A stretch of DNA of 5,087 nucleotides from contig CALAUZ010000362.1 of the NCBI GenBank assembly GCA_937892105.1, forward strand, positions 1 through 5,087, given 5' to 3'. This DNA is from an uncultured Fretibacterium sp. (GTDB lineage: Bacteria; Synergistota; Synergistia; Synergistales; Aminobacteriaceae). Of this stretch, positions 1 through 5,087 are shown one piece after another (within the stretch, counting starts at the first letter, position 1; each line of letters starts with the position of its first letter). The notes under the pieces are model-generated. The model saw only the letters and a program-made list of their open reading frames with translations. It searched no databases and was not told where the DNA came from. The position numbers and the translations under genes were made by a program.

Positions 1-4
1 CTAC

Positions 5-652
5 ATGTACAGTTTCATTTATGGTGGTGCCCTATGGAAGGCCATGGGAGTTTGTAAAGACTGTGCCAGACTTCCAATCGAAAAGCGTAATGAACTTCAG
101 ACATTGACACGGATTGAAAATCTTCCTTTCAGGCTTAACCGTGAGCAGCGTTCATGGCTGGAGAAAAAATGTAAGGACAAAAGAGGAACAGTTCGAGACA
201 CAGCTAAATGGGCATATGAGATGCGGTTTCCAAAGCGGCAGCAGGAAGAGCAGGGAAAACAGGAAGCTTCTGCGCCGAAGGAGAAGCTTAAAATTACAGT
301 TCGGCTGTCCGATATTATCGATGCTGTGGAAATGACATTCTGCGATATTGAATATTTTTGGGACAAGAAAACGGGCGAGATAATTTGTTCTGATGACATT
401 ATGTTTGACGAGGAACTCGCTGACCTGGTAGAGGAACATGGATTTTTTATTCTGCCCCAAACATTCGGGCTTCATAGAACAATGGTTAAATTAGTGAGAA
501 CATTACCTGATGAGTTTCACAATGAATTAAATGCCGCCCTCAAAGGGAAAGATGTTGTCGGTCGCTTTGTAGACGTTGTTCGTCAGCTCGGAATGGAGGG
601 ACAATGGCTTGTATTTAAGGAAGCCGTTTATAAGCAGAAGGCAATTAAATAG
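5..652 (+). CDS. UPF0158 family protein with N-terminal helical extension (start uncertain)
   Basis: The C-terminal part, about residues 97-213, resembles the UPF0158 family (function unknown). It opens with LSDIIDAVEM and a W-D-x3-T-G-E-I segment, has a mid-domain LPxxFGLHRTM segment, and ends with GKDVVGRFVDVVRQLG followed by W-x2-F-K-E-A, the place where the family has its typical G-x-F-R-R-F and W-Y-x-F-R pattern. Residues 1-90 are not part of that domain: they contain a charged helical stretch (about 41-75) and a Gln/Glu/Lys-rich linker (77-95). The frame is open to the window edge and no ribosome binding site is visible before the ATG at 5, so the true start may lie upstream. The ATG at 44 (residue 14, MGVCKDC) is an alternative, with a purine-rich GGAAGG too close in front of it. 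The stop lies 22 bases before the next small gene, suggesting one transcript. The family match is from memory of conserved residues; no biochemical role can be given. Confidence 0.8.
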   Translation: MYSFIYGGALWKAMGVCKDCARLPIEKRNELQTLTRIENLPFRLNREQRSWLEKKCKDKRGTVRDTAKWAYEMRFPKRQQEEQGKQEASAPKEKLKITVRLSDIIDAVEMTFCDIEYFWDKKTGEIICSDDIMFDEELADLVEEHGFFILPQTFGLHRTMVKLVRTLPDEFHNELNAALKGKDVVGRFVDVVRQLGMEGQWLVFKEAVYKQKAIK

Positions 653-674
653 TGTGAGTATAAGGGGATTGGAT

Positions 675-779
675 ATGAATAATGCAGCTATTTTAATGCT
701 TATATTCTCAGGGGTAATTCTTATATATGCTCCGTTTTTGGCCTGGACTAAAGACATTAGGCTGATCAGGCGGCACTAA
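675..779 (+). CDS. 34-residue single-pass membrane peptide
   Basis: This short ORF begins with ATG at 675, preceded by AAGGGGA at 662-668 with a 6-base spacer, a strong ribosome binding site that favours this start over longer in-frame readings overlapping the upstream gene. The peptide has one hydrophobic stretch (about residues 4-24, AAILMLIFSGVILIYAP and following) and a basic tail ending IRLIRRH. By the positive-inside rule the C-terminus should be cytoplasmic. There is no signal-peptidase motif. It follows the UPF0158 gene by 22 bases on the same strand and its stop codon is embedded in a weak terminator-like hairpin. I do not recognise a family; small membrane peptides of this kind often modulate a membrane partner, but nothing here names one. 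Confidence 0.6.
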   Translation: MNNAAILMLIFSGVILIYAPFLAWTKDIRLIRRH

Positions 780-798
780 GCCTTGAACCGGCTTTTTT
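778..798 (+). terminator. Possible weak intrinsic terminator
   Basis: AAGCC (778-782) and GGCTT (790-794) form a 5-bp stem around a 7-base loop, followed by four more T (795-798), giving six T in a row from 793. It overlaps the stop codon of the 34-residue ORF. The stem is short, so termination is probably partial; it would separate the UPF0158/membrane-peptide unit from the phosphodiesterase unit. Confidence 0.35.
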
Positions 799-816
799 AC
801 AGAGAATGCGCTGTGC

Positions 817-891
817 ATGGGGGCTACGTTAGTTATAAGCCTTATTGCTTGTATAAGAAGCGGCATTAAAATAATAAAGGATAGTATGTAA
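817..891 (+). CDS. Doubtful 24-codon hydrophobic ORF
   Basis: ATG at 817 opens a 24-codon frame ending TAA at 889-891. The peptide starts MGATLVISLIACIRSG and ends in a Lys-containing amphipathic tail. Upstream there is only a weak purine tract (AGAGAA, 801-806), and a CTG at 811 is in the same frame. The ORF fills most of the gap before the phosphodiesterase gene and resembles small hydrophobic or leader peptides, but size and weak initiation signals make chance quite possible. No family is recognised. Confidence 0.2.
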   Translation: MGATLVISLIACIRSGIKIIKDSM

Positions 892-913
892 AAACACAAG
901 GCAGGAAGTTAAA

Positions 914-1462
914 ATGAATTTATTAATCGCATCAGACATTCATGGAGCAGAGGCTTATTGCGGTAAACTAATCAAGGCATGTTATCTTGAAAGAGCTGAA
1001 ACAGTCCTTCTAATTGGCGATATTCTGGACGGAAATCGAGAAGTGGCGGCCATGTTAAACAGCCTTAGCCGCGAGAAAACTATTCTCTGTGTTTGGGGTA
1101 ACTGTGATTATCCGGAAGATCAGGCGATGCTTGACTTCCCTATCATGGCTGAATATTGTTTATTATTCGTTGGGGGCAAAGTCATCTTTGCCACACACGG
1201 ACACAGAGCAATCCCAAATCTGTCATCAAATAGCATCCTGCTTCATGGACACACTCATGCTCCATCTTGGGAGCTAACTAAAGCGGGCTGCCTCGATTTG
1301 TGTCCCGGCTCAGTCTCAAATCCCAGACGAAACAGCCAGCGCAGTTATATGATTCTGGGCGACGAGGGCTTCACTTGGAAAGATTTGGACGGACGGACTT
1401 ATCACAAGCTGTGTTTTGAAGAACTTAGCAAACACAATCAAACGTTAGAGAATCATAACTGA
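914..1462 (+). CDS. yfcE: YfcE-type metallophosphoesterase (phosphodiesterase)
   Basis: This is a calcineurin-like metallophosphoesterase of the small, soluble YfcE/MJ0936 type, a cytoplasmic enzyme that binds two metal ions and hydrolyses phosphodiester bonds; the characterised E. coli YfcE acts on artificial phosphodiesters and its natural substrate is unknown. All blocks are visible in order: SDIHG (Asp8, His10), LIGDIL (Asp36), WGNCD (Asn63), THGH (His95), and LHGHTHAP (His113, His115), then the PGSVSNPR segment typical of the subfamily. Length (182 residues) is normal. The start has AGGAAG at 903-908 with a 5-base spacer. Its stop lies 17 bases before the SWIM gene, so the two are likely co-transcribed; no obvious functional link follows from the families. 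The last 15 or so residues are polar and extend slightly past the fold. It appears intact. Confidence 0.93.
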   Translation: MNLLIASDIHGAEAYCGKLIKACYLERAETVLLIGDILDGNREVAAMLNSLSREKTILCVWGNCDYPEDQAMLDFPIMAEYCLLFVGGKVIFATHGHRAIPNLSSNSILLHGHTHAPSWELTKAGCLDLCPGSVSNPRRNSQRSYMILGDEGFTWKDLDGRTYHKLCFEELSKHNQTLENHN

Positions 1463-1479
1463 AACGAGAAGGTAGAATC

Positions 1480-2679
1480 ATGGCTTATTTCTACTATAAA
1501 CCGAAAAGGACTAAGGAAGAATTTCAGGAAAAGGCGGCAGATATTCTGTCGGCTCATCCTGAATACAAACCCGTCGAGGTAACAAACGCATCAAGGCAGG
1601 GAATATGCTCAAGCTGGTGGGGTAAAGCGTGGTGTGAAAATCTTGAACGTTATGCTATTTGGGAAAATAGGATAACGCTCGGAAGAAGTTATATCCGTAA
1701 CGGCGCAGTCATAGATTTAAATATTAATGGAGGTAATATAAATGCTCTTGTATTGGGGCATCTCAATGAACCCTATGAAGTGAATATACAAATCGCGCCG
1801 ATTTCATCACAGCGTCAAAGAGAAATTGAGAGACTAGCCACAGGAAAGATTCAGAGTTTAGAAGAATTATCCTCTGGAAATTTTCCCGAAGAATTAAAAG
1901 AAATATTCTTCCAGAAAGGTATCCTTTTCCCGCTACCTGACGAGATGGATTTTAGCTGTACATGTCGGGATTGGGCTAATATGTGCCGGCATGTAGCGGC
2001 CGCACTTTACGGAATAGGAGTCCGGCTCGACACCGATGCGTCTATCTTCTTCAAGATGAGAGGAATTGACATTCAGAAATTTTCAGCTAATGTCGTTCAT
2101 GATAAACTTGAATTAATGCTCAACAATATGAAAAATGACAGTCCCAGAATTTTCAAGGGCATTGATTTATCGGAGGTGTTTGGAATGGAAGTATCCCAAA
2201 TTAATGAAGTTGCAGCAACGCAGATCGCTGAGAGTACAGCACAAACAGACGAGACAGCCGTACAGAAAGAAGACCCCGTGAACACAAAATATAGTAAAGA
2301 TTTCACGGAAGAAGAAAAGGCAGAGATTCTGAAACTTGGCAGAGAAATCGGCTGGAGTGCGGCGGCGAAAAAAGTCGGGACTACTGTTTGGGTAATTGGG
2401 AAATGGCGTAGGGACGAAACTGCGGCACTAGCACAACAGGCCTCTCAAGTACAGCCAGAAAGAGAGGCTCCGGAAGAGAAACTGCTGGAAAAAGAACTGC
2501 CGGAAGAAACACAGTCAGAAGTTTCATCTCAGCAGTTGACAACGCAGATAGAACATTTGCCTGCCTTACATGAACAACTGCAACAGCTCAGGCTTGAAAA
2601 CGCTGTCCTGAAGGATAAGCTTGCGATGCTCATAATGCAGTTCAACAATGCAAAGAAAGCGATTATTCATCTGATTTGA
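1480..2679 (+). CDS. SWIM zinc-finger protein fused to HTH and leucine-zipper module
   Basis: Residues 1-235 match the bacterial SWIM zinc-finger protein family that is often encoded next to SNF2-type helicases: an SSWWGKAWCENLE segment (44-56), LGRSYIRNGAVIDL (67-80), and the zinc site C160-x-C162-x6-C169-x-H171 inside CTCRDWANMCRH. The rest is unusual. After a polar linker (236-270) comes a transposase-like helix-turn-helix (about 273-312: FTEEEKAEIL, then AAKKVG, then IGKWRR), a Glu/Gln-rich linker (315-355) and a C-terminal leucine zipper with Leu363, 370, 377, 384 at d positions and Asn374 at an a position. The HTH and zipper recur in the two minus-strand neighbours. GAGAAGG (1466-1472), 7 bases before the ATG, sets the start. 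The 3' end overlaps the opposing gene by 17 bp. DNA binding is inferred from the HTH and SWIM domains; no SNF2 gene is in view and the process served is unknown. Confidence 0.88.
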   Translation: MAYFYYKPKRTKEEFQEKAADILSAHPEYKPVEVTNASRQGICSSWWGKAWCENLERYAIWENRITLGRSYIRNGAVIDLNINGGNINALVLGHLNEPYEVNIQIAPISSQRQREIERLATGKIQSLEELSSGNFPEELKEIFFQKGILFPLPDEMDFSCTCRDWANMCRHVAAALYGIGVRLDTDASIFFKMRGIDIQKFSANVVHDKLELMLNNMKNDSPRIFKGIDLSEVFGMEVSQINEVAATQIAESTAQTDETAVQKEDPVNTKYSKDFTEEEKAEILKLGREIGWSAAAKKVGTTVWVIGKWRRDETAALAQQASQVQPEREAPEEKLLEKELPEETQSEVSSQQLTTQIEHLPALHEQLQQLRLENAVLKDKLAMLIMQFNNAKKAIIHLI

Positions 2680-3202
2680 CATCAAGTTCCGTAAGATCAG
2701 CAATGACCATGCGTAGCTTTTCCAACTGGTGAGATAAAAGCTCTATTTTCCCTTTGAGTACAGCATTCTCGATTGCAAGGGAATCAATTTCTCTTCTTGT
2801 TGGACCTGCTGCTTCCGTCTGTTCCGCAACGTCTGGCTCTACTGATTTCTCCGTAGCTATGACTTGCTTCACCGTCATTAAAGGTACTTGCTTCTCATCT
2901 ATAGCTGGCTCATCAGCGAGTACAGCGGATACGGCGGAGTCGTCCATTTCTTTTGTATCTGTGTCAGTTATTGTGTCCTCTGTTTCTGTAGTAGGTTGAG
3001 GACTATCTACAGTGATTATAGGAGCTTGAATATCTTTGGAAGCTGTGGCCGTCACGGCGTATTTTTTATATACCCAATAATTAACGAGATAACGTGAAAT
3101 GCCAAATTCTTCAGCAGCCTTTCTCACCGATGTATTTCGGGCTTTGGCTACGATTTTGAGCCTCTCTTCTTCTGTGAAATCCTTTGTCTTTTTATTCGGC
3201 AT
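2663..3202 (-). CDS. HTH–acidic linker–leucine zipper protein
   Basis: A 179-residue protein with three parts. Residues 6-48 are a transposase-type helix-turn-helix (KDFTEEERLKIV, KAAEEFGIS, LVNYWVYKK). Residues 50-135 are a Thr/Asp/Glu/Val-rich, probably disordered acidic linker. Residues 136-171 are a leucine zipper with Ile139, Leu142, Asn146, Leu149, Ile153, Leu156, Leu160, Leu163, Ile167 and Leu170 in a/d positions. Both ends are similar to the C-terminal module of the opposing SWIM protein and to the next gene upstream. I choose the ATG at 3202 because AAAGGA (3217-3212) lies 8 bases before it; ATGs at 3208 and 3232 are in frame but badly spaced. It follows the 206-residue gene by 74 bases on the same strand, with a hairpin between. 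Architecture resembles IS3-type OrfA (HTH plus zipper) but is larger and has no OrfB partner. Likely a dimeric DNA-binding protein; targets unknown. Confidence 0.75.
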   Translation of the reverse strand: MPNKKTKDFTEEERLKIVAKARNTSVRKAAEEFGISRYLVNYWVYKKYAVTATASKDIQAPIITVDSPQPTTETEDTITDTDTKEMDDSAVSAVLADEPAIDEKQVPLMTVKQVIATEKSVEPDVAEQTEAAGPTRREIDSLAIENAVLKGKIELLSHQLEKLRMVIADLTELDVKSDE

Positions 3203-3227
3203 GGTCATTTTCCTTTCTGCAAGTATT

Positions 3228-3270
3228 GACATGCGGGGCGAAGAACATCATTTATCCTCGCCCTCATGTC
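3228..3270 (-). promoter_or_regulatory. Intergenic hairpin between the two HTH–zipper genes
   Basis: GACATG (3228-3233) pairs with CATGTC (3265-3270) and GGGCGA (3236-3241) pairs with TCGCCC (3258-3263): 12 pairs interrupted only by a 2-versus-1 internal bulge, with a 16-base loop region. On the minus-strand transcript the hairpin lies just after the stop of the 206-residue gene and about 10 bases before the AAAGGA ribosome binding site of the 179-residue gene. No T-run follows, so it is not a standard intrinsic terminator; mRNA processing, stability or translational control are possible roles. Confidence 0.55.
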
Positions 3271-3276
3271 TTCTGC

Positions 3277-3897
3277 TCACATCAAGCTCGTCATTGCTGA
3301 CTTTAGCTTCTCTATCTCTGCTGTCAGCGTTGAGATTTTCTCCTTGAGAATAGCGTTCTCGATAAGGAGTGCCTGCGTTTCATCACGCTGCTCCGATGAC
3401 TTCAGCGCGTTGATAGACACGGTCTTTTGTGCTTGGGGTTCAGGTGTCTTCTTCGCTTCAGTCTGCTCAACAGATTTCACTGGCTCTGTTGATTCAGTGG
3501 GCATATTTTTCAGAGCGACTTCTTTCTTCCGACGAGATTTCCGCTTAGTAGCCTGTGTCTGCTTTGTATGTGTCTGAGCCGCTGTCTGAGTCGCTGGTTT
3601 TTCAGACTGGGAAGACGATTTCTTTTTCTCTCGATGAAGCCAGTAATAAATGAGCCTGGCATTTACACCAATTTCATGGGCGGCTTTTGTTGCGCCGACT
3701 TCTTTGGCTAGTTCTATGATCGTTGCCCTTTCTTCTTTTGTGAAGCTCCTTGAGCCTTTCGAGTTCCGGGAGGCATCAGTTTGTTCTCCAGAATGCTCTT
3801 CAATCTGAGAGGCGTTGGCTTCCTCTGGATTATCATCTGCTGGAACTTCATCTGCTATATCTACGGTTGGAGTTGCTGCTGCTTCATCTATATCCAT
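3277..3897 (-). CDS. Acidic head–HTH–basic linker–leucine zipper protein
   Basis: A 206-residue paralogue of the downstream gene. It has an acidic N-terminal head (residues 1-45, rich in Asp, Glu and Ala), a helix-turn-helix (about 50-90: SFTKEERATIIELAKEVG, AAHEIGVN, IYYWLHREKKK), a basic Lys/Thr/Gln linker (91-170) with the cluster KRKSRRKK at 118-125, and a C-terminal zipper with Leu177, Asn181, Leu184, Ile188, Leu191, Ile195, Leu198, Met202 and Leu205 in a/d register. The only start candidate is ATG at 3897: an in-frame stop lies at 3928-3930 with no ATG, GTG or TTG between. The nearest Shine-Dalgarno-like AAGG (3916-3913) is 15 bases away, so initiation may be weak. It is first in a probable two-gene unit with the 179-residue protein. 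The sequence fits a DNA-binding dimer; the family name and target are not known to me. Confidence 0.75.
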   Translation of the reverse strand: MDIDEAAATPTVDIADEVPADDNPEEANASQIEEHSGEQTDASRNSKGSRSFTKEERATIIELAKEVGATKAAHEIGVNARLIYYWLHREKKKSSSQSEKPATQTAAQTHTKQTQATKRKSRRKKEVALKNMPTESTEPVKSVEQTEAKKTPEPQAQKTVSINALKSSEQRDETQALLIENAILKEKISTLTAEIEKLKSAMTSLM

Positions 3898-3963
3898 GAT
3901 GTCAGTAATGTACCTTTCTTTTTTGGCTTAATTCTAACACAACAGACAGATGTATGGATAATT

Positions 3964-3996
3964 ATTATAAATGGGAGTCTGTGTATAGACTCCCAT
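3964..3996 (-). promoter_or_regulatory. Perfect 10-bp inverted repeat beside a TATAAT box
   Basis: ATGGGAGTCT (3971-3980) and AGACTCCCAT (3987-3996) are perfect inverted repeats around a 6-base spacer. On the minus strand the repeat lies 27 bases after the Rpn stop codon, so the RNA hairpin could end that transcript, although only a broken T/A tract follows it. Immediately after it on the same strand is TATAAT (3969-3964), 66 bases before the start of the 206-residue gene. No good -35 box is visible at the right distance, since the repeat occupies that position; the repeat could therefore also be an operator. Terminator, operator or both remain open. Confidence 0.5.
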
Positions 3997-4022
3997 GTGT
4001 TGTTCTACTATGTTAAAGTGTG

Positions 4023-4865
4023 TTAATGCATGTCATATGTTGCGTTAGCATTCCAGCCTGTAAATTCGGCAGCTTCTTGCTGTGAAAACTTGCCGCTTGC
4101 GACAAGCCGTTCATAGATTGAACGTTTCTCTTCGCTACGTCCTCGCTGTTCGCCTTCTGCTTGCCCAAGATGCCTGCCTTCTGCAAATTTCTCATCTTCT
4201 ATTGTTAATAATTTCATAAACTCACGCCTCCATTCTGTGTTTTCTTTGGCTTCCTTAACCTTCTGATCTAATGCTTTGATAAACGAATCATCATCGCTGA
4301 CTTTATTTTTTCCCACAAAATCCAAGAATCGTTTTAACTCGGGACTTACATCGTTAAGCTTGCCTTTCGTGTTGAGATAAACAATATACGCTCCGTCACC
4401 AAGTGCAATTTCCTTATCCTCAGTGCAGTAATTCTGGAAACTGTAAATATGCCGTCCCTTCTTAAACGGATCGAATGTGCATATAAACACAACGTAGCAG
4501 TCTGGCAAATCTTTATAATTTCCTGATTGTTTAAGCGTGTCGAGACTAAGCCCGTCATAAGTCAATACAGTCTGATAAGCTCTCGGTCTTTTGAACAAGT
4601 CATTAAGTTTCCTATTCTGGGCTTCAAAATCCATTATTGCTTGCGCTAATCTCGTGAAAATATCAAAACGCACACCGCGTATATGCAGAGCAAGTTTTTC
4701 TGACTTTTGCGGCTCAATATCTCCAATGCAGCTAACGTCAAGATGTGGAAAAATCCTGTGAATCATTTCAGAGCACAGAGATTTATCTGACATAATCTTG
4801 CAGAAAAGATAATCATCACCGAGAGTAAGGCTTTGCCATTTCTTTTCACGCTCTGCTGGTGTCAA
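4023..4865 (-). CDS. Rpn family PD-(D/E)XK nuclease-like protein (PDDEXK transposase family)
   Basis: A full-length (280-residue) member of the Rpn/PDDEXK_2 family. Characterised E. coli Rpn proteins are DNA endonucleases that promote RecA-independent recombination; other members are annotated as putative transposases without being shown to move. Visible landmarks: GDDYLFCKIM (17-25), the nuclease core RFDI with Asp68 and DFEAQ with Glu81 and Gln83 (the family uses E-x-Q in place of E-x-K), FKRPRAYQTVL (91-101), SGNYKDLPDCYVVFIC (114-129), and a C-terminal helical region ending in EAAEFTGW. The turn between Asp68 and Glu81 is RLAQA where relatives are usually polar. The start is TTG at 4865; the first in-frame ATG (residue 25, 4793) would cut the conserved GDDYLF block. 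Ribosome binding is weak (GGA 10 bases upstream); a better GAAAGGAAA lies about 26 bases away. A TATAAT box precedes it. Single gene, no partner visible. Confidence 0.85.
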   Translation of the reverse strand: MTPAEREKKWQSLTLGDDYLFCKIMSDKSLCSEMIHRIFPHLDVSCIGDIEPQKSEKLALHIRGVRFDIFTRLAQAIMDFEAQNRKLNDLFKRPRAYQTVLTYDGLSLDTLKQSGNYKDLPDCYVVFICTFDPFKKGRHIYSFQNYCTEDKEIALGDGAYIVYLNTKGKLNDVSPELKRFLDFVGKNKVSDDDSFIKALDQKVKEAKENTEWRREFMKLLTIEDEKFAEGRHLGQAEGEQRGRSEEKRSIYERLVASGKFSQQEAAEFTGWNANATYDMH

Positions 4866-4912
4866 TATTTTATGTTCCGTTTTTCTTCTCTTTCCTTTCA
4901 GAATAATTTGTT

Positions 4913-4941
4913 ATTATACTAAATTTTTATAGGTATCAATA
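4913..4941 (-). promoter_or_regulatory. Sigma70-like promoter for the Rpn gene
   Basis: On the minus strand a perfect TATAAT occupies 4918-4913. Upstream, TATTGA (4941-4936) gives a 17-base spacer, or TTGATA (4939-4934) a closer -35 match but a 15-base spacer. Transcription would begin near 4906, leaving a leader of about 40 bases before the TTG start at 4865. No other promoter in the window fits as well. Confidence 0.5.
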
Positions 4942-4971
4942 ATATAGATTAATGAACATGTGTTAAATCAC

Positions 4972-4994
4972 AACCACCGGTGTAGCCGGTGGTT
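4972..4994. repeat. Strong 9-bp hairpin (inverted repeat)
   Basis: AACCACCGG (4972-4980) and CCGGTGGTT (4986-4994) are perfect inverted repeats with a 5-base loop, TGTAG on the plus strand and CTACA on the minus strand. Neither strand has a T-run after it, so an intrinsic terminator is unlikely. Its place after the stop codon of the minus-strand partial gene is typical of the subterminal hairpins of IS200/IS605 elements. Confidence 0.8.
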
Positions 4995-5045
4995 TGCTCA
5001 GCACTAGAAGGGCATGTTACAGGCTACACCTAAAGGGGCTTATCT
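4972..5045 (-). ncRNA. Candidate omega-RNA-like 3' end with loop pseudoknot
   Basis: Reading the minus strand, the stop codon of the partial gene (5042-5040) is followed at once by GCCCCTTTAGGTGTAGCC, about 27 bases of connecting sequence, then the strong hairpin at 4994-4972. The hairpin loop CTACA (4985-4981) is complementary to TGTAG in the upstream segment; the complement extends to 9 bases (GGTGTAGCC, 5030-5022, against 4987-4979), so a pseudoknot or an alternative fold is possible. TnpB omega RNAs of IS200/IS605 elements overlap the tnpB 3' end, contain a pseudoknot and end in a hairpin near the right end of the element. This is an inference from layout only. Confidence 0.3.
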
Positions 5046-5087
5046 TTTGCCTCCTGTTACGACAGCTTCACCCGTAAACGGGTCATA
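5040..5087 (-). CDS. C-terminal 15 codons of a truncated-by-window protein
   Basis: The minus-strand frame entering from the right edge encodes YDPFTGEAVVTGGKR and stops with TAA at 5042-5040; the rest lies outside the window. The tail is too short to assign a family. The RNA-like structure downstream of it suggests the end of an IS200/IS605 tnpB, whose C-terminal tails after the zinc finger are variable. A phage-type DNA methylase or an ordinary cytoplasmic protein would fit the residues equally well. The alternative frame starting with ATG at 5086 gives only nine codons. Confidence 0.4.
   Translation of the reverse strand, partial: YDPFTGEAVVTGGKR

Follow-up and report, generated by a model that had tools for sequence, protein, structure and literature searches.

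The DNA considered here is a stretch of 5,087 nucleotides, hereafter the window, from an uncultured Fretibacterium sp. of the order Synergistales (contig CALAUZ010000362.1, positions 1 to 5,087 of the forward strand). In order, its genes encode a protein of 215 amino acids (aa), a YfcE-like phosphoesterase, a SWIM zinc-finger protein, two minus-strand proteins of 179 and 206 aa, termed p179 and p206, and an Rpn-family nuclease. This report is concerned with the SWIM, 179-aa and 206-aa genes, which are real members of one family whose products join a helix-turn-helix (HTH), a linker and a zipper; the combination is new, while its component parts are known. At loci of this kind the SWIM gene lacks an SNF2 helicase gene next door and faces a zipper gene tail to tail, and the two products probably pair through their zippers.

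The SWIM protein (399 aa, 1480–2679, plus strand) is encoded by an open reading frame (ORF) with full-length relatives, such as “SWIM zinc finger family protein [Synergistales bacterium]” (P0002), and its AlphaFold2 model has a mean predicted local distance difference test score (pLDDT) of 81.1. The SWIM motif, CxC-x6-CxHxxA, was found by pattern match at residues 160–174 (1957–2001, plus strand), and C160, C162, C169, H171 and A174 are invariant in the 42 aligned rows. These five residues match the motif CxC...Xn...CxHxxA, by which PMC6316741 defines the SWIM zinc finger. The corresponding Pfam model, PF04434, scores 19.5 bits against a curated cut-off of 19.6 (E 7.1e-4). The C-terminal part carries an HTH at residues 273–313 (2296–2418), called by profile and modelled as helices at 277–290, 292–299 and 303–323, then a Glu/Gln-rich linker (2419–2571) with pLDDT below 50 at residues 328–353, and finally a zipper (2572–2676), called by profile and by a modelled helix at 360–398, with Asn374 at a heptad a position and the small residue Ala391 at d.

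The 179-aa gene (2663–3202, minus strand) is the partner gene in what follows; it is an ORF with tail-to-tail counterparts in four genomes (G004, G159, G086 and G090), and its product would be 189 aa long if started at an upstream ATG at 3232. Its HTH lies at residues 7–47 (3062–3184, by profile and AlphaFold2 model) and its zipper at residues 137–171 (2690–2794, by sequence and AlphaFold2 model). By their ORF coordinates, the convergent 3′ ends of the SWIM and 179-aa genes overlap by 17 nucleotides (2663–2679). The 206-aa gene (3277–3897, minus strand) is an ORF with relatives P0156–P0166 and at loci L090 and L091, and profiles place its HTH at residues 50–90 (3628–3750) and its zipper at residues 172–206 (3280–3384).

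A shared HTH-linker-zipper module

An earlier note, made from the letters alone, had described a common module in these three proteins, and its description holds on recomputation. The motif F-T-x-E-E-(K/R) starts at residue 275 of the SWIM protein (FTEEEK), 9 of p179 (FTEEER) and 52 of p206 (FTKEER), the HTHs end in Trp309, Trp43 and Trp86, respectively, and the core Asn of each zipper is 24 residues from its last Leu (Asn374/Leu398, Asn146/Leu170 and Asn181/Leu205). Likewise, the codons for ENAVLK show five differences between the SWIM and 179-aa genes, every one at a third position. That the three belong to one family with an HTH and zipper module was also borne out by profiles built from 76 zipper rows and 100 HTH units, from which the window proteins and the close p206 relatives P0156–P0162 had been removed and in which the more distant relatives at L090 and L091 were retained. 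For the SWIM protein, p179 and p206, the zipper profile gives 29.0, 35.1 and 47.1 bits and the HTH profile 48.8, 49.4 and 55.1 bits, far over the best of 1000 shuffles per protein (7.0 bits for the zipper and 9.4 for the HTH, with 549 to 772 shuffles per 1000 yielding any score). Among the 2645 ORFs of at least 40 aa in 38 loci and the window, 41 family ORFs score at least 21.6 bits and the next ORF 8.4, where 38 of the 41 are themselves part of the profile and only the three of the window were held out. The HTH-zipper family, as represented by the three proteins of the window, goes unrecognised by Pfam and NCBIfam at their cut-offs.

AlphaFold2 single-chain models, which cover the SWIM protein and p179, show in both an HTH of three helices and a long C-terminal helix, each modelled with confidence, joined by a linker of low confidence. 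As means over ten-residue blocks, the confidence in the SWIM model is 86–97 for the HTH (271–320), 92–96 for the zipper (361–399) and below 50 at 242–270 and 328–353; in p179 it is 89–94 for the HTH (11–50), 95–98 for the zipper (141–170), lower at the edges (71 and 83), and below 50 across nearly all of the linker (55–130). Both linkers appear acidic. The zippers have heptads with Leu at d and Asn at a, as in parallel dimeric leucine zippers of the bZIP type, for which GCN4 and its buried Asn are the reference, and a sequence search of the PDB lists coiled-coil peptides, USF2 and C/EBP beta, none of them with an E-value as low as 0.001. Unlike bZIP proteins, which bind DNA through a basic region, the members of this family would use a separate HTH held over a flexible linker.

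The family was then delimited by profile searches of 180 genomes of the order Synergistales, for which genome completeness was not reported. The HTH-zipper profile matches 18 genomes, two of them (G154 and G077) with HTH-like pieces only, and the zipper-only profile matches 17, one of them (G033) falsely, so that the family is present in 16 of the 180, a patchy distribution. The DNA fetched from these 16 genomes holds 38 zipper ORFs, to which the three of the window and one further ORF in G002, at L029, are added. The family alignment, run against about 5.8 billion proteins, retrieved 45, of which the two that carry a source name are both from Synergistaceae. Leu stands at Asn+24 in 79 of the 86 zipper proteins, and the 24-residue spacing is therefore a trait of the family, beyond the three genes of the window. 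In 67 of the 86 the distance from the Asn to the C-terminus is exactly 25 residues, and ENxxL occurs in all 86, this being the anchoring pattern, for lack of which no member was rejected. The number of HTH units ranges from 0 to 5. One SWIM relative, P0006 (637 aa), has about five of them ahead of its zipper, which suggests, from the sequence, that the unit has been duplicated.

SWIM gene order with and without a zipper tail

SWIM genes lie behind SNF2 genes in records from Firmicutes, Treponema and Synergistales. In a control set of 42 SWIM loci for which no zipper tail is known (27 from a genome collection and 15 from Synergistales), an SNF2 helicase gene, called by BLAST with one SNF2 protein, lies immediately upstream on the same strand in every case, at gaps of −237 to +234 bases, and no zipper ORF above the threshold of 15 bits was found in these loci. 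When seven of the upstream genes were examined with Pfam, six had an SNF2 domain, and the seventh, a piece in L123, had Helicase_C only. The five zipper-tailed SWIM loci, i.e., the window, G004, G159, G086 and G090, present the opposite picture: an SNF2 gene is absent from all five within the DNA examined (1.5 to 8.2 kb upstream), and in all five the SWIM gene lies tail to tail with a zipper gene. The two genes share 17 nucleotides at their 3′ ends in the window, 26 in G004, 17 in G159 and 23 in G086; in G090 a gap of 1 nucleotide separates them.

The sharpest control for this contrast is G165, whose tailless SWIM protein is 58–59% identical to that of the window; here an SNF2 gene adjoins the SWIM gene, and the zipper genes lie elsewhere in the genome, none of them near SWIM. 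The window-type SWIM protein has the same SWIM domain and CxC...CxHxxA motif as its counterparts in the SNF2-associated operon; it differs from them in that its gene is not beside SNF2 and faces a zipper gene, and in its added zipper tail, for which an HTH is optional.

The earlier note had inferred that the family works with a SWIM protein, and this is supported in part. The link of the SWIM gene with the first minus-strand gene is kept in the five zipper-tailed loci. No such tie holds for the 206-aa gene, whose relatives at L090 and L091 belong to G161 and G162, which are outside the 62 of 180 Synergistales genomes with a SWIM match. At the SWIM locus of G086, however, a third zipper gene matches p206 (E 2.3e-11).

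In three of the four genomes with zipper-tailed SWIM proteins (G004, G159 and G086), SNF2 is found on other contigs, away from the single SWIM match of the genome, and no zipper gene lies beside it. Among the 12 other zipper genomes, SWIM and SNF2 are side by side in G165 and G167. The ten zipper genomes without a SWIM match include eight with SNF2 matches below the cut-off or none at all (G050), one over the cut-off (G136), and one, G162, that passes only when neighbouring pieces are summed. In this set of genomes SWIM and SNF2 tend to co-occur, the exceptions being G090 and G136.

A tree of 49 SWIM proteins places the zipper tail in one clade of ten rows (99/96) and in the separate P0007, which sits beside its nearest relative, P0023, a protein with a different tail. 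The starred branches of this tree force at least two changes of the tail, not necessarily both gains. The SWIM relatives P0009 and P0023 lack the zipper and have tails with the precomputed domain PF14354, presumably Lar_restr_allev.

Proposed zipper pairing and its alternatives

These findings can be arranged as follows. The window proteins belong to a Synergistales family of probable DNA-binding proteins, in which a flexible linker connects one to five HTH units to a zipper of the parallel type at the C-terminus. One lineage of SWIM genes no longer has its usual place behind the SNF2 motor gene, and the SWIM proteins of this lineage end in such a zipper, with the HTH optional. The SWIM protein would then pair via its zipper with the protein of the gene that meets its own tail to tail, HTH units carried by one partner or by both would anchor it at DNA sites, and an SNF2 motor encoded elsewhere may continue to work with it, perhaps held at the same sites. 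We favour this reading, i.e., that SWIM and partner pair through zippers and so place SWIM, perhaps with the SNF2 motor, on HTH-bound DNA, at a probability of about 0.6.

The locus of G090 bears most directly on it. Its SWIM protein has the zipper and no HTH, and the facing gene is an ORF for a zipper peptide of 47 aa, its ATG preceded by a GGGAGG stretch; these are the sole two family matches in the genome, and two zippers kept without any HTH are expected if the zippers pair with each other. The G090 partner ends in LTQLDV, which resembles LTQLDI of the G086 partner and LTELDV of the window partner. Moreover, the partner zippers form a group of their own (mean identity 59% within the group, 40% to SWIM zippers and 39% to the rest). 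At the core position d+17, Phe occurs in four of five partners and in none of 81 others, and a small or polar residue is found in this heptad in six of 12 SWIM zippers, none of the five partners and two of 69 other zippers. Judging by these residues, the SWIM and partner zippers could pack as knob and hole.

Several observations weigh against zipper pairing. The d+17 counts contain related rows (L079 and P0003 are one zipper), and this heptad was selected after the sequences had been seen. Scores of g–e′ charge favour no heterodimer, being 2, 2 and 2 in four loci, while in G086 the two homodimers score 0 and 2 and the heterodimer 1. The genes converge, and convergent genes do not share a transcript, an unusual arrangement for subunits. 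Ten of the 16 zipper genomes are without a SWIM match, and G090 is without any SNF2 match in a search of a genome whose completeness was not reported. The contrast of 42 to five loci tracks kinship to a large degree, the zipper family having been found in only two of the control genomes, G165 and G167, and L110, the locus of G167, is cut off within SWIM by the contig end; in six of the 42 loci (L110, L017, L119, L024, L122 and L011) a facing gene could be missed because fewer than 700 bases lie downstream of SWIM. Nor are the five zipper-tailed loci five independent events, because G004 and G159 are closely related and have nearly all flanking genes in common and G086 shares one gene farther out with them. 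On the side of pairing stands the comparison of G004 with G159, where the ratio of nonsynonymous to synonymous substitution rates (dN/dS) is 0.21, 0.32 and 0.41 for HTHs, 0.30 and 0.39 for zippers, and 0.41, 0.76, 0.90 and 1.43 for linkers, values that come from few changes (5–10 nonsynonymous per HTH or zipper), with the domain and linker ranges meeting at 0.41.

Part of this evidence favours an explanation in which the three paralogues form independent homodimers and the tail-to-tail layout is a chance legacy of the SWIM gene having picked up its tail from a neighbouring family gene. The charge scores, the many zipper genomes without SWIM, and the possibility that G004, G159 and G086 represent one ancestral locus are all in its favour. 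It does not account for the two zippers of G090, kept though neither protein has an HTH, nor for the partners being a distinct zipper group with its own core residue, and within the DNA compared neither G090 nor the window has flanking genes that match those of another zipper-tailed locus. On balance we consider it rather unlikely.

An improbable alternative is that the family consists of nucleoid-associated or general chromosome proteins that coat DNA with HTH units and basic linkers, the SWIM fusion being incidental. Two HTH units are present in 49 of the 86 members, several linkers are Lys/Ala-rich (e.g., P0122 and P0123), and no neighbourhood around zipper genes is common to more than three genomes, as this would have it; the SWIM and p179 linkers look acidic, however, the distribution of the family is patchy (16 of 180 genomes), and SWIM is a consistent neighbour at five loci.

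The earlier note had also suggested a derivation from OrfA of insertion sequences (ISs) of the IS3 type. The SWIM tail and p179 match the N-terminal part of the NCBIfam IS3 transposase model at 13.8 and 16.1 bits against a cut-off of 160, with p206 not listed, and IS66 TnpA (NF047595) matches the SWIM protein, p179 and p206 at 11.0, 22.4 and 23.5 bits against 74. A Foldseek search with the p179 model is led by Cgl2762 (E 0.17) and TnpE (E 0.27), both weak matches; we take TnpE to be an IS3 OrfA. OrfA and the OrfAB product of IS911, an IS3-family element, join HTH and leucine zipper according to PMC2909936. The family HTH may thus have descended from an OrfA-like protein, but the window family consists of stand-alone genes with a long linker, a zipper at the extreme C-terminus, and no integrase partner found. 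A working OrfA is not supported: the integrase domain PF00665 occurs in one of the 16 zipper genomes, on contigs other than those of the zipper genes, in a search that did not include the IS66 transposase domain, and the six window proteins scanned with Pfam and NCBIfam gave no integrase match. With scores so far under the cut-offs, it is highly improbable that these are IS3- or IS66-type accessory genes (OrfA or TnpA) still serving a mobile element.

Returning to zipper pairing, its role may be approached through other SWIM proteins. We take YwqA of Bacillus subtilis, an SNF2 protein, to be of the SWIM-linked type. It is described as poorly characterised in PMC7385302, a SWIM protein appears among the IrrE/DdrO-regulated genes of Deinococcus deserti in PMC5552922, and the Shu2/SWS1 family, made up of SWIM proteins of eukaryotes, works together with RAD51 paralogues, as stated in PMC6316741. 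This literature points to DNA repair or the clearing of bound proteins, which by analogy may be the role of the SWIM pair; in the open PMC literature no paper was found on the role of the bacterial SWIM partner.

A broader and more doubtful idea is that the zipper serves as a transferable Synergistales docking tag, by which SWIM would have been unhooked from the SNF2 operon and rewired, perhaps twice, onto lineage-specific HTH readers through a knob-and-hole heterodimeric zipper. The result would be a bacterial counterpart of a sequence-targeted remodeller, with HTH heads added, multiplied or lost and the docking code kept. If the pairing is real, a broken SNF2 operon replaced by a zipper-coded partnership would be a natural experiment on how SWIM is delivered to DNA, and the two short facing zippers are test objects of peptide size.

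Neighbouring genes

In the window, the YfcE-like phosphoesterase gene (914–1462, plus strand) stops 17 nucleotides ahead of the start of the same-strand SWIM gene, and the two are possibly co-transcribed; a relative of the phosphoesterase, 74% identical, lies close to a p206 relative in G162 (L091). The 215-aa protein (5–652, plus strand) is without a Pfam or NCBIfam match, and the gene at 4023–4865 (minus strand) is assigned to the Rpn family of recombination-promoting nucleases/putative transposases at 66.5 bits against an NCBIfam cut-off of 52.1.

Elsewhere in Synergistales, a two-HTH zipper gene lies directly upstream of a conserved three-gene set (L028, 9794–17045; L029, 4244–11537), two products of which resemble, by eye only, a PP2C-type phosphatase and a kinase-like protein. 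A zipper gene is also found in G001 and G002 (L030 and L031, i.e., L067 and L097), downstream of a gene for an Ala/Gly-rich, membrane-like protein. Lastly, a RecD2-like gene, so named by eye, is 83, 1844 and 998 bases from zipper genes in three genomes (L075, L091 and L099), and at L109 a RecD2-type helicase gene recognised by Pfam lies downstream of SWIM, adjoining a tailless SWIM/SNF2 pair.

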